From an uncultured Polaribacter sp. (lineage in GTDB: Bacteria > Bacteroidota > Bacteroidia > Flavobacteriales > Flavobacteriaceae), in contig CANMHT010000003.1 in NCBI GenBank assembly GCA_947497755.1, forward strand, positions 248,001 through 312,000: 64,000 nucleotides of DNA. Reading direction: 5' to 3'. The notes under the pieces are model-generated. The model saw only the letters and a program-made list of their open reading frames with translations. It had not been told where the DNA came from and made no database searches. A program made the translations under genes and the position numbers. Shown here piece by piece: positions 50,837 to 61,723 of this stretch (position 1 is the first letter of the stretch; each line of letters begins with the position of its first letter).

Positions 50837-52993
50837 ATGAGAACTTTTATTACTTTACTTCTACTCTGCATAAGTAGTTTTACTTTTTGTCAAAAAGCAG
50901 AAAGTCCTTATTTAAAAGTGCTAACAAAAGATGCACTAATTCCGTTAAAAAGTAGCAAAGCTAACATTCAAATTACGGGTACAATTGCACATGTTCAAAT
51001 TACCCAAACCTATCAAAATTTAGGAGACACTCCTATTGAAGCCACTTATGTATTTCCTATGTCTGCAAAAGCAGCTGTACATAAAATGCAATTAGCAGTA
51101 GGCAATAGAATTACACAAGCAAAAGTTTTTGAAAAGAAAAAAGCTAAGAAAGTATATCAACAAGCTGTAAAAGAAGGAAAAAGAGCGGCAAAATTAGAAC
51201 AACATAGACCTAATGTTTTTCAAATGAAAGTAGGCAATATTATGCCTAATGAAAACATCAGTATTATCATTTCTTACACAGAAATGGTAAGCTTAGCAAA
51301 CAAAGAATATCAATTTATTTTTCCAGGAGTAGTTGGACCTAGATATACTGGCGAAAGCACTAAAAAAGAAAGTGTTTTTAATCAAGCTTATGTTCAGAAT
51401 AGTGGTAGCAATACTATTGATTATGAAATAAAAACAACAATTAATGCTGGGATGATGATCCAACATTTATCATCGTCATCTCATAAACTAAATATACATT
51501 ACCCAGATGCAAATACCGCAGAAATTGCCTTGTCGGCAGAAAATAAAAACCCATCGAATAGAGATTTTGTAATCAACTATTCATTAAGAACAAGTAACAT
51601 CAATACAGGATTGCTGTTGTATGAAGGAGAAAAGGAAAATTATTTTTCATTATTGTTAGAACCAAAAGCTACAATTCAAAAAAATGAAATTCCTGCAAGA
51701 GAATATCTATTTGTTGTTGATGTATCAGGTTCTATGATGGGATATCCAATAGAAGTAAGCAAGTCTTTATTGAGAAATTTATTAGGGGATTTAAGTAAAA
51801 ATGATCGATTTAACATCTTACTTTTCTCTGCTGACAATGCAATTTTTAAAGAAAAGTCGGTAGAGGCAAGTCAAGAAAACTTAGCTGAAGCCTTGCAATT
51901 TTTAACAGGAACTTTTGATAACTATGGATATGGGACAAGAATATTAAACGCTTTAAAAACAGGATATCAACTCCCTAGAGAGTTTCCAAATACAGCAAGA
52001 AATGTTGTAGTAATTACTGACGGATATGTATCTGTAGAAAAAGATGTATTTGAATTCATTGAAAACAATTTAAACAAAGCCAATGTATTTACATTCGGAA
52101 TTGGTAATGGTACCAACAGATATTTAATTGATGGAATGGCAAGAGTTAGTAATAGTTTGTCTTTTAATGCGAGTTCAAAAGACGAAGCATATAAAGTAGC
52201 AAAAACATTTAAAAAATACATTGCGACACCAATGCTAACACAAATAAAAATGCATAGTAACGATTTTGAAATCTATGATGTTGAACCCAAAACGATTCCA
52301 GATGTTTTTGCCGATAGACCCGTATTGATTTATGGAAAGTACAAAGGAGCACCTAAAGGTACAATTGAAATTGAAGGCTTTCAAGGAAATAAAAAATACC
52401 GTCAAACTATTAGAGTTCAAAATGGCAAATTGAGTCAGCAAAATGAAGCATTAAAATACTTATGGGCAAGAAAAAAAATTGAACGTTTAATTGATTATAA
52501 AAAGAATTTTGGAGAACAAGTAAAACAAGAAGTAATTCAACTTGGAATTCAATACAATTTAGCAACAGCATTTACCTCTTTTGTTGCTGTAGATTATGAG
52601 GTTGTTAACCAAAATGGTAGACTAAAAAAAGTAAAACAACCTTTGAATTTACCTAAAAATGTTAATCTATCTGCTGTGGGTGCAGAGGCTAAAATTACTG
52701 GAAAATCAAAATTTAGAAAGTCATTTAAAATTCATATTGAATCAATCATCAACAACAATCAAAAAAGAGCAATTAAAATGTGGTTAAAAAGTAACTATTC
52801 GGCAATTATTCGCATGTATCTAAAGAAATACAAACAAATAAGAATACATATAGATGCCAGTGGGAACATTGTAAAAATTGAAAAAGAAAAAAACAATACC
52901 TGGGTCGTTGGTAGTCAATTAAAAAGCGATTTAAAAAAGCTTCCAAATAACCTTGTAAACAATCATAAATTAGTAATAACCTTAAAACAGTAG
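50837..52993 (+). CDS. Exported VIT and VWA domain protein
   Basis: A 718-residue protein with a signal peptide (ends SFTFCQ). Residues 28-155 form a VIT domain: IPLKSSKANIQITGTIAHVQITQTYQNLGDTPIEATYVFPM and KVFEKKKAKKVYQQAVKEGKRAAKLEQHRPNVFQMKVGNI. Residues 290-455 form a von Willebrand A domain with VVDVSGSMMGY, the complete metal-dependent adhesion motif (D-x-S-x-S), and RNVVVITDGYV. The last 150 residues are basic and unclassified. The layout is that of inter-alpha-trypsin inhibitor heavy chains and their bacterial relatives. It probably binds a ligand in the periplasm or at the surface. The next gene starts 4 bp later. No exosortase sorting tail is seen. Confidence 0.88.
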   Translation: MRTFITLLLLCISSFTFCQKAESPYLKVLTKDALIPLKSSKANIQITGTIAHVQITQTYQNLGDTPIEATYVFPMSAKAAVHKMQLAVGNRITQAKVFEKKKAKKVYQQAVKEGKRAAKLEQHRPNVFQMKVGNIMPNENISIIISYTEMVSLANKEYQFIFPGVVGPRYTGESTKKESVFNQAYVQNSGSNTIDYEIKTTINAGMMIQHLSSSSHKLNIHYPDANTAEIALSAENKNPSNRDFVINYSLRTSNINTGLLLYEGEKENYFSLLLEPKATIQKNEIPAREYLFVVDVSGSMMGYPIEVSKSLLRNLLGDLSKNDRFNILLFSADNAIFKEKSVEASQENLAEALQFLTGTFDNYGYGTRILNALKTGYQLPREFPNTARNVVVITDGYVSVEKDVFEFIENNLNKANVFTFGIGNGTNRYLIDGMARVSNSLSFNASSKDEAYKVAKTFKKYIATPMLTQIKMHSNDFEIYDVEPKTIPDVFADRPVLIYGKYKGAPKGTIEIEGFQGNKKYRQTIRVQNGKLSQQNEALKYLWARKKIERLIDYKKNFGEQVKQEVIQLGIQYNLATAFTSFVAVDYEVVNQNGRLKKVKQPLNLPKNVNLSAVGAEAKITGKSKFRKSFKIHIESIINNNQKRAIKMWLKSNYSAIIRMYLKKYKQIRIHIDASGNIVKIEKEKNNTWVVGSQLKSDLKKLPNNLVNNHKLVITLKQ

Positions 52994-52997
52994 CACC

Positions 52998-54074
52998 ATG
53001 AAAAACACAATTAAAAGAGCAGGATTCGTAATGACATTACTACTGCTAATCGGACAATTAACAAGTTGTAAAAAAACAGTAAAAGAAGTAGAAATTGCTG
53101 ACAATGTAATTACAACTGAGGCTATCACAGAAACTGCAGTAATTAGAGAACCAATCGTTTTTATTACCGGTGTAGATAAAAGTGATAATAACTTTTACAA
53201 AAGTGCTAGACAGTATTTTATAGAAAAGGAATACGAGGTTGTAGATGATGCTTTTTCTTTAGAAGAAATCATTAACTGGTTAAATAAAAATTATGACGAT
53301 AGATTATATGGAGAAATTCATATTGTTAGTCACAGTAATCCATGGAGAGGTATGAGTTTAGAAACAGTTATTAAAGGTGATAGAATTACAGTAGCATCAT
53401 TGCAAAGAAATGCTATAGAAGGTAATTTACCAACATTGCAAAATGTAATTGCTACGGATGCTAAAATTGTTTTTCATGCTTGTGGACTAGGAGAAAACAA
53501 AGCTTTATTACAATTGTTTAAGAGTATTTTTACTACAAATAGTACTCCACAAATTGTTGCTTCTCCTTATTATGCTGTATTCGGAAGAGAATTTTCTAGC
53601 CACTATTTAGCAAAACCTTATTACGGTTTTTACCCAACTGCAAATTCGCCAGGAAATGTAGATTTATCAAAAGAATTTGCTAGAAAATACCCTGAAGAAA
53701 AAGATATTGATTGGCTGGAAACATTGTATAATGATGTAGAAAGATATGTTGGAGAAGCCTATACTTTTAAATTTAATATTCCGGTAAAATGGATTGTAGA
53801 TTTTAATGATTCAGATCAAAATGCTCCGGTATTTAAATCTCAAGAAGAAATTATGGACTGGATTGCAGAAGATGAAAACATTTCAAAAGAATTTAGCAGC
53901 TATAACATTCCATTAGAAAAATTCAGATGGAGAACATCAATCAAAGATGGAAAGTTAATTATTAAAGGAAAAACAAGTGTGGTTTGCATCTTAAAACCAA
54001 TTATTAAACCTTACGGAGATTTAGAACATGTTACTCCAGAAATAGACAACTTACGTTTGTACAATGTAGAATAA
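52998..54074 (+). CDS. Lipoprotein with caspase-like His/Cys pair
   Basis: A 358-residue lipoprotein; the signal peptide ends GQLTSC, with the lipid-bearing Cys at residue 24. From residue 51 the fold-like pattern is EPIVFITGVDK, then EIHIVSHSNPWRGMSLE with His112, and DAKIVFHACGLGENKALLQLF with Cys162. A beta-strand ending in His, then 50 residues later a strand ending in A-C, is the catalytic layout of clan CD peptidases (caspases, CHAT, gingipains). It is also followed by QIVASPYYAVFG. I do not recognise an established family, so proteolysis is a hypothesis. It lies 4 bp after the VIT/VWA gene, so the two should be made together. Confidence 0.6.
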   Translation: MKNTIKRAGFVMTLLLLIGQLTSCKKTVKEVEIADNVITTEAITETAVIREPIVFITGVDKSDNNFYKSARQYFIEKEYEVVDDAFSLEEIINWLNKNYDDRLYGEIHIVSHSNPWRGMSLETVIKGDRITVASLQRNAIEGNLPTLQNVIATDAKIVFHACGLGENKALLQLFKSIFTTNSTPQIVASPYYAVFGREFSSHYLAKPYYGFYPTANSPGNVDLSKEFARKYPEEKDIDWLETLYNDVERYVGEAYTFKFNIPVKWIVDFNDSDQNAPVFKSQEEIMDWIAEDENISKEFSSYNIPLEKFRWRTSIKDGKLIIKGKTSVVCILKPIIKPYGDLEHVTPEIDNLRLYNVE

Positions 54075-54077
54075 TAA

Positions 54078-54105
54078 AAAAGGCAGAACTTAGGTTCTGC
54101 CTTTT
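54078..54105. terminator. Bidirectional terminator after the lipoprotein gene
   Basis: AAAAGGCAGAAC (54078-54089) and GTTCTGCCTTTT (54094-54105) pair perfectly over 12 bp around a TTAG loop. It serves both the lipoprotein gene and the convergent protease gene. Confidence 0.88.
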
Positions 54106-54115
54106 ATTTTTGTTA

Positions 54116-57100
54116 TTATTTTATCTTTTTGAGTAAGATATCAATAGCTTTATTTAACTGTGGTGTATTGTTTTCTAAACGATCTTTAAAGTTTTTACCA
54201 ACATAAACATCAGGAGCTACTCCACTCATCTCTAAATCTTTTCCATCAAGAGTATAACATCCCCAAGAAGGTAATCTATAAAAAGAACCATCTACTAAAG
54301 AGCTACCCGTTGTAAAAATAATCCATCGGTAAGTTTCTGTACCTACAATCGTTCCTAATCCAAGTTCTTTAAAACCTGCAGCAGTCATTTCTGCATCAGA
54401 TAAAGATTGCTCATTTATTAATAATACAATTGGTTTATTTCCATAACTAAAGTTAGACTGACTCGTTAATTTTCCTTCTCTATATTTCCAGTTTAAATAT
54501 TGTTTTTGTTGTAAGAAGTTCAACACAGCATCATGTACATTACCTCCAGTATTATAACGTAAGTCTAAAATTAAGCCATCTTTATAGGCTTCACTGCTCA
54601 TTAAATCTTGATAGAATTTAGTTAACTCTCCACCTCCCATGTTTTTCATATGTACATAAGCAATTTTTTTATTCGTCTTTTTATCTACATAAGCTTGGTT
54701 ATTATCTTGCCATTCGTCATAAACTAAATTCTTTATAGTTCTATAACTTGTTGGATGCACATTCACATCAAACTCTTTTCCATTTCTACTAAATCTTAAA
54801 CTTAGTTCAGCATTAAACTTTGGATTTGTAAAATAAGATTCTCTATTCATTTTTGAGTTGATCTTATTATCGTTTACAGCAATCAATCGATCTCCTTTTC
54901 TAATATTCTTTCCTCTAACATCAGTTGGTCCGTCAGTAACTATACTTTCAACTACAAAAGGATTTTCACTGTTAAACACTATTCCAGTTGATAATGTACG
55001 AGTACCATGATAAACTTGTTCTTCTTTTCCGCTAGAATTAAATCCAAAATGTGAAGTGTTTAATTCTCCTAACATATCATTAAAAATCAATCTTAAATTT
55101 GCTCTGCTAGCTACGTATGGTAAATATTTTGCATAGTTATCTCTTAGTTTCTGCCAATTTTCTCCATGAAACTTTTCATCGTAAAAATTTTCTTCCATTC
55201 CAGCCCAAGCTTCATAATACATTTGCTCAAACTCCTCAGAAAGCGATTTATTAAAACGATAACTTATTGCTATCGGTTTTAGCTTGTTTGCTCCTAAGTT
55301 TACGGTTTGTATTGTTCCACTAGATAAGAGGTAATGCTTTTTACCAATTGTTACAAACTGATAACCATACACCGGCTTATCTCCCATTTTAACAGTCTTG
55401 TTATTTTCAAAAGGCTCCATAGTTGTTTTCCATAATTTACTACGACCTTCATCATGATTAGAAATGTACAATACATGAGTTTTATTCCCGTCTTTAATCA
55501 AAGTAATACCTCTTTGATTTCCAAAACTCGGACTGATTCTTGTAAGTCTTTCCATCAATCCATTAGGGTTAATAGATACCTTAATTTTAGATTTTTTAGA
55601 TGCTTTCTTCTCTTTTTTATCCTTCTTATCTTTCTTTACTTCCTCTCTAAAAAGCGCATTTACTTTATCTAACTTAAATGGTTTTTCGTACTTATCTAAT
55701 GCCATTTGATATACTTTAGAATTTCCATTTCCTCCACTAGGAAAACTAGGCGCTGTTCTTTCAGATGAAAAATAAATATACTTTCCATCTGCAGACCACA
55801 CAGGTCCTATTTCTGACACCTTGGTATTCGTTAAATTTAAGGTCTTTTTTGTAGTTAGATTGTATGCAAAAATATCTGCTTCGAAATCTCTATATGCATT
55901 GTACACTATATAGTTTCCATCAGGAGAAAAATATGGATCTGAATTATAGAATCCCCAAAGTTCATCTTTTACAATTAACTCATTCTTAAACGAATCTAAA
56001 TCAATAGTATAAATTTCATTTCTTCCTCTAAGATATACCCCTTTAGTTCTTTCATTATTAAGGGTTATCTGCCTATTATTTCTGCTACTTTTAGTTATTT
56101 GTTTTGTAGCAATCTTTCCATTTGCACTCGTAACAAACCAATTGTAATACCCCTTATAAGATCTAGAATACAATAGTGAGTTATTATTTTTTAACCATTT
56201 TACTTCTTGCACAGCTTCTAACGGATCTGTATTAATTTCTTTAATAAACTTTCCTTTAATATCTGAAACAAAAAGTTTTCCTCTAGAAATGAATGCTAAT
56301 TTTTTTCCATCAGGAGAAACATCAAAATAGGTAATGTTTCCTTTTACATCATAGGTTTGATTTTTCTTTATAGTCGAATTATTATTGCTATTTATTCTTA
56401 ATCTCTTAGTAGATTTTTTTGATACATCATAGATATATAATTGGTAATCTTTTCTAAACACAATCTTTTCACCATTTGCAGCAACTTTTGGCCACATAAT
56501 TGAAGTAGAAAAATTAGTCAATCTCTTTTTTACTCCATTTTCAAAAGTATATAAGTTGTATTCTCCTTTGTATTGATCTGATTGAAAATAAACTTTCCCA
56601 TTACGATCAATTGTAGCTCCAAAATCTTTTCCTCTATAACTTGTATGCTTGGTAAACTTCTTTGTTTTTTTGTTGTATGATTTTATATCTGGATTATAAT
56701 CTCCTTTGTATCTTTTTCTATGTGCAAAAACAGAACTCTCCCAAGATTCATTAAAATAAATGTCTTTTGTCTTTGGATGTTCAACTACATTGTGAACCGT
56801 ATTAAAATAATGTCCAAAAGTTCGTTTTGGCGTACCACCAGAAATAGCAACAGTAAAATTGCTCATTCTATTATCACGATCTGAAGTAAAATTGATGGTT
56901 TTACTATCCCAATTCCAAGAAGCAACCATATCTCCACTTTGATGATATGTTAATTGTTGAATCTCGCCTCCTTTTAAAGGCATAATATATACATCATAAT
57001 TACCATATTGATTGCTAGAAAACGCTAACCATTTTCCATCTGGAGAAACACTTGGATTGGTTTCTGTACCATCCATTGCTGTTAATCTAAAAGCATCTCC

Positions 57101-57259
57101 TCCATTAGAAGACACCTTCCATAAATCTCCTTCATAACTATAAATAACTTCTTTAGCATCTGGAGTTAATGTTGGTTTTAAAGTAAAAAAAACTTGTTTG
57201 TTTTGAGAATATACTGCCAGCGTGCTAAACAGTATAAAAATTCTAAAAAAAGATTTCAT
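54116..57259 (-). CDS. Tricorn-like S41 family protease
   Basis: A 1047-residue exported protease (signal peptide ends LAVYSQ). The N-terminal 550 residues contain repeated WD40/TolB-like blades such as NPSVSPDGKWLAFSSN, YFDVSPDGKKLAFIS and DPYFSPDGNYIVYNAYRD, forming one or two beta-propellers. A Lys-rich linker (KKDKKDKKEKKASKK) precedes the C1 helical domain, a PDZ domain (GIVFNSENPFVVESIVTDGPTD) and the S41 core. LILDLRYNTGGNVHD and LINEQSLSDAEMTAAGF supply the oxyanion region and catalytic Ser; GTETYRW follows. This order is that of archaeal tricorn protease. It probably degrades peptides in the periplasm. It has its own strand and terminator. Confidence 0.92.
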   Translation of the reverse strand: MKSFFRIFILFSTLAVYSQNKQVFFTLKPTLTPDAKEVIYSYEGDLWKVSSNGGDAFRLTAMDGTETNPSVSPDGKWLAFSSNQYGNYDVYIMPLKGGEIQQLTYHQSGDMVASWNWDSKTINFTSDRDNRMSNFTVAISGGTPKRTFGHYFNTVHNVVEHPKTKDIYFNESWESSVFAHRKRYKGDYNPDIKSYNKKTKKFTKHTSYRGKDFGATIDRNGKVYFQSDQYKGEYNLYTFENGVKKRLTNFSTSIMWPKVAANGEKIVFRKDYQLYIYDVSKKSTKRLRINSNNNSTIKKNQTYDVKGNITYFDVSPDGKKLAFISRGKLFVSDIKGKFIKEINTDPLEAVQEVKWLKNNNSLLYSRSYKGYYNWFVTSANGKIATKQITKSSRNNRQITLNNERTKGVYLRGRNEIYTIDLDSFKNELIVKDELWGFYNSDPYFSPDGNYIVYNAYRDFEADIFAYNLTTKKTLNLTNTKVSEIGPVWSADGKYIYFSSERTAPSFPSGGNGNSKVYQMALDKYEKPFKLDKVNALFREEVKKDKKDKKEKKASKKSKIKVSINPNGLMERLTRISPSFGNQRGITLIKDGNKTHVLYISNHDEGRSKLWKTTMEPFENNKTVKMGDKPVYGYQFVTIGKKHYLLSSGTIQTVNLGANKLKPIAISYRFNKSLSEEFEQMYYEAWAGMEENFYDEKFHGENWQKLRDNYAKYLPYVASRANLRLIFNDMLGELNTSHFGFNSSGKEEQVYHGTRTLSTGIVFNSENPFVVESIVTDGPTDVRGKNIRKGDRLIAVNDNKINSKMNRESYFTNPKFNAELSLRFSRNGKEFDVNVHPTSYRTIKNLVYDEWQDNNQAYVDKKTNKKIAYVHMKNMGGGELTKFYQDLMSSEAYKDGLILDLRYNTGGNVHDAVLNFLQQKQYLNWKYREGKLTSQSNFSYGNKPIVLLINEQSLSDAEMTAAGFKELGLGTIVGTETYRWIIFTTGSSLVDGSFYRLPSWGCYTLDGKDLEMSGVAPDVYVGKNFKDRLENNTPQLNKAIDILLKKIK

Positions 57260-57369
57260 AATCGATAAAAAGTTTGATTGAAAAGCGGAAGTTAATCAAT
57301 TTTAAATAGTATCTTTCTTTTAAAAATGTTAAATCCTTTATTTGGCATAATTCATGCTTAATTTTGTTC

Positions 57370-60126
57370 ATGCTGCAACTCAAAAAATATCTTAGTTTTT
57401 GTTTCTTTCTGATAATGTGCTCACTAGCTTTTGGTCAGAATCAACACTTTAAAAATATTTCTATAAAAGAAGGTTTACCACAATCTGATGTTTTAGATGT
57501 AGCACAGGATGAGATTGGTTATTTGTGGTTTGCTACTCAAGGTGGTGGTATAGCCAAATATGATGGTAAAACTTTCGAAAACTACAATCAGTCTAATGGG
57601 CTGTTATCTAATTTTGTGAATGCCTTGTCTATTCATAAACATAAATTATATGTAGGTACACACAAAGGATTGTCTATTTTTTACAAAGGAAAATTCACAA
57701 ATTATCCTTCACCTAAAGTCAATGCAATTACACAGCTAAATAATGAAACTTATTTAGCTACCAAAGAAGGAATTTATGTTTTTAGAAAAGATTACATACT
57801 TCCTTTAAAACTGAATTTAAAAATTGATTTATCAGAAATAAAATCTATTCGCTACACAGATTCTTTTTATTGGATAGAAACGCCATCTGATATTTGGAAA
57901 ACCAAAACATTACACAACCCTAAAGCGATAACAAAAGCTACAAAAAAAGAAAAAATCTTATGGTTAAATAAGCAACAAAAGACAATACAACATTATCAAA
58001 AGTTGCCTAGATTTAAAACAGTCAGTATAGTAAAAATATTCAGAGATAAACAAAACACATTATGGATTCTAACTCGTGGACAAGGTGTTTTTCAATCGAT
58101 TGTAAATAATTTCCAACATTTTGATCGTATCAATTCACAAAGAATTCGACAAATTACTGCCGTGCATACTTCTAGTGATACAGTTTGGTTTTCTGACGGA
58201 TTTTCACTCTTTAAAAATGACAGTATGGGTATTAAATCCATTCCCATACAGCAACATCAATTTAAAACTACCAGTATTACTACTGATGCATTTCATAATT
58301 TATGGGTTGGTTCTAAAAATAAAGGTATTTACATTTTTAGAAAAAAAACGGATAGTTTACAGTTAGAAACTTATCAAATTGAACGTTTACATACGCAAAA
58401 TGGTTTGCCTAATAATCAAATTCAAAAAATACAGATTCTAAATGATACTATTTGGATCACTACAAAAAACAAAGGAATTATTAAGTTAGATTATGATTTT
58501 AACAATGGTGTTGTTAAAAAGATTCGAACTTTTAATCAAAGTAACGGATTAAAAGATTTACAGATTACAACGACTCTTATACATAAAGGGAATGTTTGGT
58601 ACGCTACTAAAAATGGCGCAATTGGCTATATTAAAGACAATACCATAAGGCATTTTTCTCGTGTTTTAAAACAGCAAACTTCTATTAGTTCTTTAGCTTT
58701 TTATAAAAATCATTTGCTCATAGGAACTTTAGGCAATGGCATTTGGATGGCTAAACAAGCAGAAATAAATCAGTTAAAACCTTTGTCTTCTTCTCTTTTA
58801 AACTCTTTAAATGTGTATCAAATGTTAGTAGATAGTCAACATAAAATTTGGATGGGTACAGAAAAAGGATTGGATCAAATAGTCTTAAAAAATAATCGGG
58901 TTTTTGATGTTAAGCATTTTAATGCTAATGATGGTTTTTGGGGTATAGAAACTAGTTTAAATACTGCTATAGAAACAACTAATGGCAACCTATGGTTTGG
59001 AACCAAAAACGGAATCACAAAATACACTCCAACAAATAGCATTGCAAAAAAATACAAACCTATTATTTCTTTTGAAAAAATACTGGTTGAAAACCAGTAT
59101 CTAGACAGTATTTCTAATCCGATTATTGCTAAGATATTACAATTAAAACCTCTTCAAAACAGTCTCTCTTTTCGTTATAAAACAGTAGATTTAAGTCATC
59201 CAGATAGGATTTTATATCAATGGAAATTAAATGATAACACTAGTAATTGGACTACTCAAAACAACATCAATTTTGCCAATTTACAAGCTGGTAATTATGT
59301 GTTTAGTGTGGTTTCTAAAAATGCATTTAATGAAATTAGCAAGCCTCAAATTTTCAACTTTTTTATTGACAAACCTATTTACAAAAAAACTTGGTTTATT
59401 GTTAGTTGTATCATTGCTACATTCTTAGTATTATTATTGATTGTAGTAAACTATATACAGCAAAAAAATAAAGAAAAAGTACAAAAGTTACGTTTAGAAA
59501 ATCACCTAATAAATTTAGAGCAAAAAGCACTTCAGTTACAAATGAATCCTCATTTTATCTTTAATGTTTTAAACGGAATTAAAGCCTTGGGGTATAAAGA
59601 AGATAAAACAGAACTAAACCAAACCATTAGTCAATTTGCTACTCTATTACGGGCTATTTTACACAATTCTAGAGAAGAAAATATTAGCTTATCAGAAGAA
59701 ATAAAAACTTTACAAAATTATGTTGCTTTAGAACAAAAAATGACTTCAAATCCATTTGATTTTAAAGTAGAAATAGCTATAAATACTATTGATATTGAAG
59801 AAATATTGATTCCACCTATGCTTTTACAACCTTTTATTGAGAATAGTATTAAACATGGATTTAAAGGTATTTCTAAAACTGGAAACATAATACTTTACTT
59901 TACTATAAAAAATCACCAATTATATTGCTCAGTTACCGATAATGGTGTGGGTTACAAACATTCTCAAAAAACTAGTACACATAAATCTGTTGCTCTCCAA
60001 GTAACTAAAGAACGTATCAAAAATTTGTCTAAATATAGTAGCATAGAAATTGCCGAAATAAAAAAAGATGCAGAAATTATTGGGACAAAAGTAGAAATTA
60101 AGATACCTTTAGTAACTGATTACTAA
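57370..60126 (+). CDS. Two-component-propeller sensor histidine kinase (LytS/YehU-type catalytic core)
   Basis: The track start at 57364 is TTG; the ATG at 57370 gives 918 residues. It has a signal peptide (ends SLAFGQ) and a periplasmic sensor of about 560 residues with propeller repeats such as LWFATQGGGIAKYDG, LYVGTHKGLSIF, LWVGSKNKGIYIF and LWFGTKNGITKY. A Y_Y_Y domain (SFRYKTVDLSHPDRILYQW) follows, then one transmembrane helix (about residues 675-697). The kinase domain has LQMNPHFIFNVLNGI with the phospho-His, PMLLQPFIENSIKHGF (N box) and VTDNGVGY. This PF06580 core pairs with LytTR regulators. One is encoded two genes downstream in the same operon. Confidence 0.92.
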   Translation: MLQLKKYLSFCFFLIMCSLAFGQNQHFKNISIKEGLPQSDVLDVAQDEIGYLWFATQGGGIAKYDGKTFENYNQSNGLLSNFVNALSIHKHKLYVGTHKGLSIFYKGKFTNYPSPKVNAITQLNNETYLATKEGIYVFRKDYILPLKLNLKIDLSEIKSIRYTDSFYWIETPSDIWKTKTLHNPKAITKATKKEKILWLNKQQKTIQHYQKLPRFKTVSIVKIFRDKQNTLWILTRGQGVFQSIVNNFQHFDRINSQRIRQITAVHTSSDTVWFSDGFSLFKNDSMGIKSIPIQQHQFKTTSITTDAFHNLWVGSKNKGIYIFRKKTDSLQLETYQIERLHTQNGLPNNQIQKIQILNDTIWITTKNKGIIKLDYDFNNGVVKKIRTFNQSNGLKDLQITTTLIHKGNVWYATKNGAIGYIKDNTIRHFSRVLKQQTSISSLAFYKNHLLIGTLGNGIWMAKQAEINQLKPLSSSLLNSLNVYQMLVDSQHKIWMGTEKGLDQIVLKNNRVFDVKHFNANDGFWGIETSLNTAIETTNGNLWFGTKNGITKYTPTNSIAKKYKPIISFEKILVENQYLDSISNPIIAKILQLKPLQNSLSFRYKTVDLSHPDRILYQWKLNDNTSNWTTQNNINFANLQAGNYVFSVVSKNAFNEISKPQIFNFFIDKPIYKKTWFIVSCIIATFLVLLLIVVNYIQQKNKEKVQKLRLENHLINLEQKALQLQMNPHFIFNVLNGIKALGYKEDKTELNQTISQFATLLRAILHNSREENISLSEEIKTLQNYVALEQKMTSNPFDFKVEIAINTIDIEEILIPPMLLQPFIENSIKHGFKGISKTGNIILYFTIKNHQLYCSVTDNGVGYKHSQKTSTHKSVALQVTKERIKNLSKYSSIEIAEIKKDAEIIGTKVEIKIPLVTDY

Positions 60127-60132
60127 ATTATT

Positions 60133-60969
60133 ATGAATAGAAGAAAGTTTATTAAAAGCTCCATCATTGGAGCTATCGGCACCAGTATACTTGGAAGTTT
60201 TTACTCCTGGCAAGTTGAACCCTTTTGGTTAGAATTTGTGACATTAAAAATGGATATTAAAAATTTACCAAGTGATTTGAAGGGAAAAACACTAATGCAA
60301 ATTAGTGATGTACATGTTGGAAACAACTTCGATTATCAATACATTATTGATTCATTTAAAAAAGCGCAAAAATTTAATCCAGATTTTGTGGTGTATACGG
60401 GTGATTATGTTTCGTATGAAAATGAAGAACAATATGCCCAACTAAAACAGGTTTTTAAACATGCAGTTACTGGCACTTATGGCACTATAGGTGTATTAGG
60501 AAATCATGATTATGGAATCAATTCTGTACAACAAGATGTTGCAGATGAAATTACCTCCATACTTGAAAGTTCTGGAATAACAATTTTAGGCAATGAGCAA
60601 AAGAGTTTTCATGGATTGAATATTATCGGAATTGATGATTATTGGAGTTTAAATTTTGAACCCAAAAAAGTAATGCGACATATAGATCATCAAAAAGCCA
60701 ATTTGGTTTTATGTCACAATCCCGATGTTTGCGATTTAAATGTTTGGAATAACTATAAGGGGTGGATTTTATCTGGTCATACTCATGGTGGTCAAGTAAA
60801 ATCTCCTTTTCTTAACCCACCAATTTTACCAGTAAAAAATAAAAAATATTCTTCTGGAAAAATTGATTTAAACGATGGAAGAACTTTGTATATTAACCGA
60901 GCTTTAGGACATTTGTGGCAACTTAGATTTAATGTAAGACCAGAAATTACAATTTTTGAATTAGAATAA
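60133..60969 (+). CDS. Tat-type exported metallophosphoesterase
   Basis: A 278-residue calcineurin-like phosphoesterase. The start MNRRKFIKSSIIGAIG is a twin-arginine signal, so it is probably exported folded with its metals. Metal-binding motifs are all present: ISDVHVG, YTGDYVS, LGNHDYG, LCHNPD and GHTHGGQV. This set belongs to the YkuE/YaeI-type group acting on phosphodiesters, often in lipid or nucleotide metabolism. It sits 6 bp after the histidine kinase gene and 4 bp before the response regulator gene, an unusual place in a two-component operon. It might act on the signal or the envelope. The substrate is unknown. Confidence 0.88.
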   Translation: MNRRKFIKSSIIGAIGTSILGSFYSWQVEPFWLEFVTLKMDIKNLPSDLKGKTLMQISDVHVGNNFDYQYIIDSFKKAQKFNPDFVVYTGDYVSYENEEQYAQLKQVFKHAVTGTYGTIGVLGNHDYGINSVQQDVADEITSILESSGITILGNEQKSFHGLNIIGIDDYWSLNFEPKKVMRHIDHQKANLVLCHNPDVCDLNVWNNYKGWILSGHTHGGQVKSPFLNPPILPVKNKKYSSGKIDLNDGRTLYINRALGHLWQLRFNVRPEITIFELE

Positions 60970-60973
60970 CTGA

Positions 60974-61723
60974 ATGAAAATACAAACTGCAATTTTAGTA
61001 GATGATATGCCTCAGGCATTAGAAATGTTACATACAGACATCACTAATAAATATCCAAATATTGAAATCATAGGAACTGCTAAAAGTGTAGTTGAAGCAG
61101 CAAAGTTATTACGAAAACGCCAACCAGACATTCTTTTTTTAGACATTATGTTGGGTGATGGTACTGGTTTTGATGTCTTAGAAATCATTCCAGATTTACC
61201 ATCAAAAATCATTTTTGTTACTGCTAGCGATGCGTATGCTATTAAAGCATTTAAGTTTGCTGCTATCGATTATGTATTAAAACCTTATTCTGATAATGAC
61301 CTTGAAGCTGCAATTAGCAAAGCGCTACATCATGTAAAACCAGAAAAAAAACAATTACATGTATTGCAAGAAACCATAACCAATCCTGCTGCTATTCCTC
61401 AAAAAATTTCTTTACACACCTTAGATAAAATTGTAGTTGTGCCTTTAGAAGAAATTGTTAGATGTAAGTCTGATAACAATTACACCACATTTTATTTTGA
61501 AAATAGCAGCAAGTTAATGGTTACTAAAACCTTAAAACACTTTGCAGATTTGTTAAAAGGAAGTCATTTTATTAGAGTACACCAAAGTCATTTAGTGAAC
61601 ACTAAGTACATTAAAGAATTTATTAAATCAGATGGTGGTTATCTCGTATTAAAAGACAAAAGTACCGTGCCTGTTTCTGTTAGAAAAAGAACAGAAGTAA
61701 TTGAGGCTCTAAATAACATATAA
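60974..61723 (+). CDS. LytTR-family response regulator
   Basis: A 249-residue regulator. The receiver domain (about 1-120) has AILVDDMPQALEML with the acidic pair, LFLDIMLGDGTGFDVLE with the phospho-acceptor Asp near residue 56, IFVTASDAYAIKAFKFAAIDYVLKPY and the conserved Lys. The LytTR DNA-binding domain (about 150-249) has VVVPLEEIVRCKSDNNYTTFYF, KTLKHFADLL and FIRVHQSHLVNTKYI. Such proteins bind pairs of direct repeats about 21 bp apart. It is the partner of the kinase encoded at 57370 and closes the operon. A candidate target in this window is the repeat pair at 50739-50771. Confidence 0.94.
   Translation: MKIQTAILVDDMPQALEMLHTDITNKYPNIEIIGTAKSVVEAAKLLRKRQPDILFLDIMLGDGTGFDVLEIIPDLPSKIIFVTASDAYAIKAFKFAAIDYVLKPYSDNDLEAAISKALHHVKPEKKQLHVLQETITNPAAIPQKISLHTLDKIVVVPLEEIVRCKSDNNYTTFYFENSSKLMVTKTLKHFADLLKGSHFIRVHQSHLVNTKYIKEFIKSDGGYLVLKDKSTVPVSVRKRTEVIEALNNI

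Follow-up and report, generated by a model that had tools for sequence, protein, structure and literature searches.

A 64,000-nucleotide stretch of the genome of an uncultured Polaribacter sp. (assembly GCA_947497755.1, contig CANMHT010000003.1, positions 248,001 to 312,000; hereafter the window, to which all positions refer) carries two adjacent genes, the first for a protein with VIT and VWA domains and the second for an enzyme-like lipoprotein. Three residues of the lipoprotein family, H112, R129 and C162, are retained always and only alongside the VIT/VWA protein, and all three have disappeared jointly on more than one occasion. We propose, with a probability of roughly 0.6, that the lipoprotein is an exported Cys-His-Arg envelope enzyme related to DUF4347, whose chemistry serves the neighbouring VIT/VWA protein alone and which replaces a sortase. 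Independently of these three residues, the enzyme family is also tied to a Reg_prop sensor kinase and a LytTR regulator. An initial annotation of this DNA had described the pair as a VIT/VWA protein with a caspase-like lipoprotein; the link to proteobacterial sortase targets, R129 and the two-component neighbours go beyond it.

The source assembly is 3.7 Mb in size and holds each of the two genes in single copy. Both open reading frames have the coordinates, strand and separation given initially, with 4 bp between the stop codon of the VIT/VWA gene and the ATG of the lipoprotein gene, and Pfam confirms the VIT and VWA domains. The features of the pair are as follows:

50837..52993, plus strand: gene for the VIT/VWA protein, 718 amino acids (aa), with a signal peptide, a relative of TIGR03788 (matches to PF08487, PF13768 and TIGR03788)
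50945..51277, plus strand: VIT domain, aa 37-147 (PF08487, E 2e-32)
51707..52153, plus strand: VWA domain, aa 291-439, with a metal-ion-dependent adhesion site (MIDAS) starting DVSGS (PF13768, E 8e-17)
52637..52690, plus strand: conserved linker QPLxLPxNVxxSAVGAEA, aa 601-618, a candidate processing zone
52691..52990, plus strand: C-terminal domain, aa 619-718, replacing the LPxT-transmembrane-basic tail of the proteobacterial homologues
52998..54074, plus strand: gene for the exported enzyme-like lipoprotein, 358 aa, a distant DUF4347 relative (open reading frame, Pfam, profile comparison)
52998..53069, plus strand: lipoprotein signal, MKNTIKRAGFVMTLLLLIGQLTSC24, resembling a signal peptidase II (SPII) site and ending LTSC24
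53331..53333, plus strand: His112 codon (22/22 VIT/VWA-linked homologues, 0/13 others)
53382..53384, plus strand: Arg129 codon (22/22 against 0/13, from an unbiased column scan)
53481..53483, plus strand: Cys162 codon (22/22 VIT/VWA-linked homologues, 0/13 others)

The 50 residues between His112 (in HIVSHS) and Cys162 (in FHACG) are likewise as first described for the window protein. The lipobox is not universal in the family, several homologues having plain signal peptides or N-terminal anchors instead.

Lipoprotein homologues were found in 15 of 301 sampled genomes of the family Flavobacteriaceae, and 11 more loci, six of them from Polaribacter, came from GTDB contigs. A profile search placed the lipoprotein in 19 of 400 genomes of the family and in three genomes outside it. 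The final set with flanking sequence comprises 35 homologues from 33 genomes; a weak match in genome G476 (locus L077) resembles an alpha/beta hydrolase and was left out. H112 and C162 are both kept in 22 of these proteins and both gone in 13, the loss always being joint. The expectation in the initial annotation that the two residues would be conserved in orthologues thus does not hold for 13 of the 35, and these track the absence of the VIT/VWA protein. At 21 of the 22 loci with an intact dyad the VIT/VWA gene lies upstream, on the same strand and within about 2.1 kb, and it is adjacent at none of the 13 dyad-less loci (21/1/0/13). The one intact-dyad genome without an adjacent VIT/VWA gene (G051) has it on another contig. 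Counted by genome, 22 have both dyad and VIT/VWA protein, 11 have neither and none is mixed (22, 0, 0, 11); whole-genome searches of the 11 genomes with only dyad-less copies found no such VIT/VWA protein anywhere. Of the 301 family genomes, 13 have the VIT/VWA protein, each of them together with an intact enzyme; the other two that carry the enzyme have the dead form. The corresponding Fisher values (5e-9 and 9e-9) take no account of shared ancestry and serve as description only. The VIT/VWA protein and the lipoprotein are a genuine evolutionary unit, and the earlier idea of an enzyme with its partner is much strengthened.

The specificity of the loss is seen in a scan of 358 alignment columns, for which the 35 proteins were split by presence of the VIT/VWA protein, Arg129 playing no part in defining the groups. 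Exactly three columns, H112, R129 and C162, are invariant in the 22 VIT/VWA-linked proteins and absent from the 13 others; no column among the 358 has the reverse pattern. The loss of the three residues is specific, since the dyad-less group keeps about 80% of the other conserved columns. His108 is invariant in 35 of 35 homologues and Phe159 and His160 in nearly all; the 13 dyad-less copies all keep H108 and H160, and their reading frames are still open. Copies from Polaribacter and several others carry K or Q in place of His112 and S in place of Cys162. The replacement pairs at the two positions (K/S, Q/S, E/P, N/A, K/Q and K/N) are unlike one another, in agreement with several separate losses. 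Cys, His and Arg are the established catalytic residues of sortases (see also PMC4560394), and a Cys-His-Arg set is what is kept together and lost together here. By these comparisons the pattern of H112 and C162 is that of a catalytic pair linked to the VIT/VWA protein, and survival of the residues only alongside that protein suggests that the enzyme may do the job that sortase does in proteobacteria. The simplest cause would be that the VIT/VWA protein is the substrate or an obligate partner of the enzyme.

For a maximum-likelihood tree of the enzyme the columns around H112 and C162 were removed and the R129 column was kept. The dyad-less proteins are scattered over more than one clade in it, and forcing them to be monophyletic costs 75 log units (approximately unbiased test, p = 1.6e-7). 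Five joint losses (L031/L072; L029/L073; L028; L021; and L020 with Polaribacter) are needed if a regain of the three residues together with the partner gene is excluded. In the tree of the VIT/VWA proteins the window clade groups with L019, as predicted by vertical descent with losses.

Two genomes, G181 and G355, have two paralogues each. In both, the intact copy stands beside the VIT/VWA gene with no kinase nearby, and the dead copy stands beside the kinase with no VIT/VWA gene nearby; no other observation points so clearly to two functions that can come apart as this split by neighbourhood. Whether active or dead, most homologues have a Reg_prop/Y_Y_Y/His_kinase sensor and then a LytTR regulator as the next genes downstream of the enzyme, and the persistence of dead copies next to the kinase suggests a signalling role without catalysis. 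In the same two genomes a small lipoprotein gene (L071:4649-5221 and L034:7543-8118), whose product resembles aa 642-717 of the VIT/VWA protein, in its C-terminal domain, lies downstream of the intact enzyme.

TIGR03788, the "marine proteobacterial sortase target protein", matches the window protein over positions 3-596 of its 629 (E 1e-114), and matches the outgroup members with E values of 1e-119 and 1e-123. In all three VIT/VWA proteins scanned the match ends at 592-596 of 629 and lies below the family cut-off, the window protein scoring 384 bits against 551.65. The linker at aa 601-618 marks the end of the region that the protein has in common with the proteobacterial sortase targets. On plasmids of Phyllobacterium and Novosphingobium an annotated TIGR03788 member lies directly upstream of a "class GN sortase" gene, and these members end in LPLPQTAT or LELPQTGT followed by a hydrophobic stretch and basic residues. 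The flavobacterial proteins have no such LPxT-transmembrane-basic tail; their C-terminus is formed by another domain, some 100 residues long. In both systems the VIT/VWA gene stands directly before one that encodes an exported cysteine enzyme, and the VIT/VWA proteins are homologous (E 1e-114 to 1e-123), but the flavobacterial enzyme belongs to an unrelated sequence family, its partner lacks the tail and the score falls short of the cut-off. Sortase (PF04203) was found in none of 27 genomes searched, 22 of which have the VIT/VWA protein; three control genomes were positive. The marine proteobacterial versions presumably also have a histidine kinase and response regulator of their own (TIGR03785, TIGR03787), which would bring the parallel closer. 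A plasmid of Pontibacter sp. G13 encodes a VIT/VWA protein of the same type (39% identity) fused to a SusC/RagA TonB-linked outer membrane protein (L190:5998-10692), which suggests an outer-membrane role for the C-terminal part of the VIT/VWA protein.

Within the Bacteroidota there is a further point of comparison in PorU, the proposed sortase of type IX secretion, which belongs to C25 and has a Cys/His pair and a conserved Arg (PMC4560394). It resembles the lipoprotein in phylum, in its Cys/His pair and Arg and in the proposed role, but has no significant sequence relation to it and serves many cargo proteins that bear a C-terminal domain (CTD). The window genome has a separate C25 protein, and C25 is not among the Pfam matches of the lipoprotein.

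The sole Pfam match of the lipoprotein is DUF4347 (PF14252, residues 87-177), at 17.7 bits and so below the gathering threshold of 24.6; PF14252 matches 16 of 27 family members weakly, at best with E 6e-4. When hhalign compares the enzyme family with a set of 30 DUF4347 domains, E is 2e-8 at a probability of 95%, against 0.58 for a reversed control. In the alignment SHS stands opposite SHG and HAC opposite YGC, with His and Cys in register, and across eight spread DUF4347 domains no more than seven columns are invariant, those of His and Cys included. The lipoprotein differs in being small and stand-alone with an extra C-terminal region, the sampled DUF4347 matches lying mostly within large open frames. 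On profile comparison, then, the enzyme is related to DUF4347, and kinship with caspases is not demonstrable. Among solved structures, chain G of PDB 9qpe bears the name "DUF4347 domain-containing protein" and has a weak match (E 0.015) to the DUF4347 profile.

A true caspase-fold (clan CD) protease, as the initial annotation had it, is a matter of fold and ancestry and is compatible with the envelope enzyme that we propose; we rate it somewhat below even odds. His precedes Cys with the 50-residue spacing, similar to that of caspases and other clan CD members (C14, C11). Two AlphaFold models made from 12 sequences (mean predicted local distance difference test, pLDDT, 62 and 67) give the order strand-helix-strand-helix-strand-His-helix-strand-Cys-helix, in which His and Cys follow successive strands; as modelled, this order is compatible with a clan CD fold. 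Against it, hhalign comparisons with C14, C25 and C11 give E values of 0.11, 0.3 and 0.012, within the range of unrelated and reversed controls, which reach 0.008. A set of nine C14 sequences had given 0.006 with His and Cys in register; caspase homology by profile was dropped, because the fuller C14 set gave 0.11 while the controls reached 0.008. Foldseek searches of the PDB with both models found no match at E <= 0.001 to clan CD or any other fold, only generic Rossmann-like or spurious ones. A caspase fold is therefore no more than a reasonable guess.

For the mechanism we suppose that C162 would attack a peptide bond of the VIT/VWA protein, the cut probably falling within or close to the conserved linker that follows the VWA region, or else in the C-terminal domain. 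The VIT/VWA protein might then be released, or transferred to an acceptor in the envelope, and the enzyme would take the place of the class GN sortase that acts for the homologous protein in proteobacteria. Cleavage after VWA is proposed by analogy with the sortase targets, with PorU and with the inter-alpha-inhibitor heavy chains of animals, which lose their C-terminal part by cleavage and are joined to a glycan through the end so formed. The non-catalytic body of the enzyme may report the state of the envelope or of processing to the kinase; such signalling would be why the enzyme persists as a pseudoenzyme after loss of the VIT/VWA protein. We did not accept the QPLPLPxNV linker as a proven site of cleavage: it need not be one, being present in the Pontibacter fusion and, in altered form, in proteobacteria.

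Other explanations of the association must be weighed. The pair could act on a third substrate, with the VIT/VWA protein serving an active cysteine enzyme as scaffold, inhibitor or metal-dependent adaptor. Animal VIT/VWA proteins (inter-alpha-inhibitor heavy chains, PARP4) are binding modules, and the association observed would fit any obligate partnership; we nevertheless think this unlikely, as the proteobacterial homologue is annotated as the target of a neighbouring cysteine transpeptidase and the C-terminal tail of the VIT/VWA protein differs in step with the type of enzyme. Still less probable is a Cys-His-Arg hydrolase or transferase of a non-peptide envelope substrate that has only a pathway in common with the VIT/VWA protein. 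Exact one-to-one dependence on a single protein is easier to understand by direct action, and the motif order is like that of clan CD, even if no peptidase family match reached significance and DUF4347 has no assigned function. The least probable in our judgement is historical association, by which the VIT/VWA protein and the intact enzyme were co-inherited without joint function and the dead copies are decaying relics. It would suit the few independent changes on the tree and the patchy distribution (the 15 of 301 genomes), but not the retention of about 80% of the other conserved columns, of H108 and H160 in 13 of 13 and of open frames in the dead copies, nor the change of exactly three columns, nor the division of paralogues by neighbourhood.

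Several observations also weigh against the dedicated envelope enzyme that we prefer. The independent events are few, parsimony requiring a minimum of three changes, and the Fisher values overstate the significance for this reason. R129 is replaced conservatively by K in 9 of the 13 dyad-less copies, and no Arg is evident at its place in DUF4347. The linker motif occurs in the Pontibacter fusion, whose plasmid encodes no such enzyme. The fold models are of low confidence (pLDDT 62 and 67), and enzyme activity is predicted from sequence. A wider proposal, that this is an independently evolved cysteine transpeptidase beside the C60 sortases and C25 PorU, which anchors or matures one VIT/VWA protein in the Bacteroidota envelope, signals through its body to a two-component system of its own and, after loss of its target, lives on as a pseudoenzyme, we regard as tentative and on balance doubtful.

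The analysis offers a hypothesis of function and named candidate catalytic residues for an uncharacterised family, and possibly also for its relative DUF4347. The family may be viewed as a natural experiment, in which the putative catalytic site and its one likely substrate vanish jointly and the protein stays as a sensor-linked pseudoenzyme. If the proposal is true, two phyla use unrelated cysteine enzymes for one type of VIT/VWA protein, and protein sorting offers here a case of non-homologous replacement. Literature searches found nothing relevant on the VIT/VWA-enzyme pair, on DUF4347 function or on a dedicated sortase system of this kind. A reading of the pair as a defence system was dropped, there being no PADLOC match.

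Downstream of the pair the window contains:

54078..54105, strandless: two-way intrinsic terminator with a 12 bp stem, 3' of the pair
54116..57259, minus strand: gene for an S41/tricorn-type peptidase, between the pair and its usual downstream neighbours
57364..60126, plus strand: Reg_prop/Y_Y_Y/His_kinase sensor, the usual downstream neighbour of the enzyme family
60133..60969, plus strand: calcineurin-like metallophosphoesterase (YaeI/LpxG-like), between sensor and regulator
60974..61723, plus strand: LytTR response regulator

With a strong terminator and the next gene on the opposite strand, the transcript in the window probably consists of these two genes alone. The initial annotation, which saw no other genes in the transcript, was in this sense probably right for the window; in most relatives the neighbourhood is wider, with the sensor and regulator next to the enzyme. 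The S41/tricorn-type gene is found at this place also in locus L018 and is absent in L017. In many relatives, not in the window, the VIT/VWA gene and the enzyme gene are separated by genes for a small secreted protein and for an SH3-domain protein; at locus L036:7284-8762 these are an SH3-domain protein of 297 aa and a secreted protein of 187 aa without a family match. Elsewhere in the window, positions 178-25011 hold more than 20 genes in one almost gapless run, all on the minus strand.
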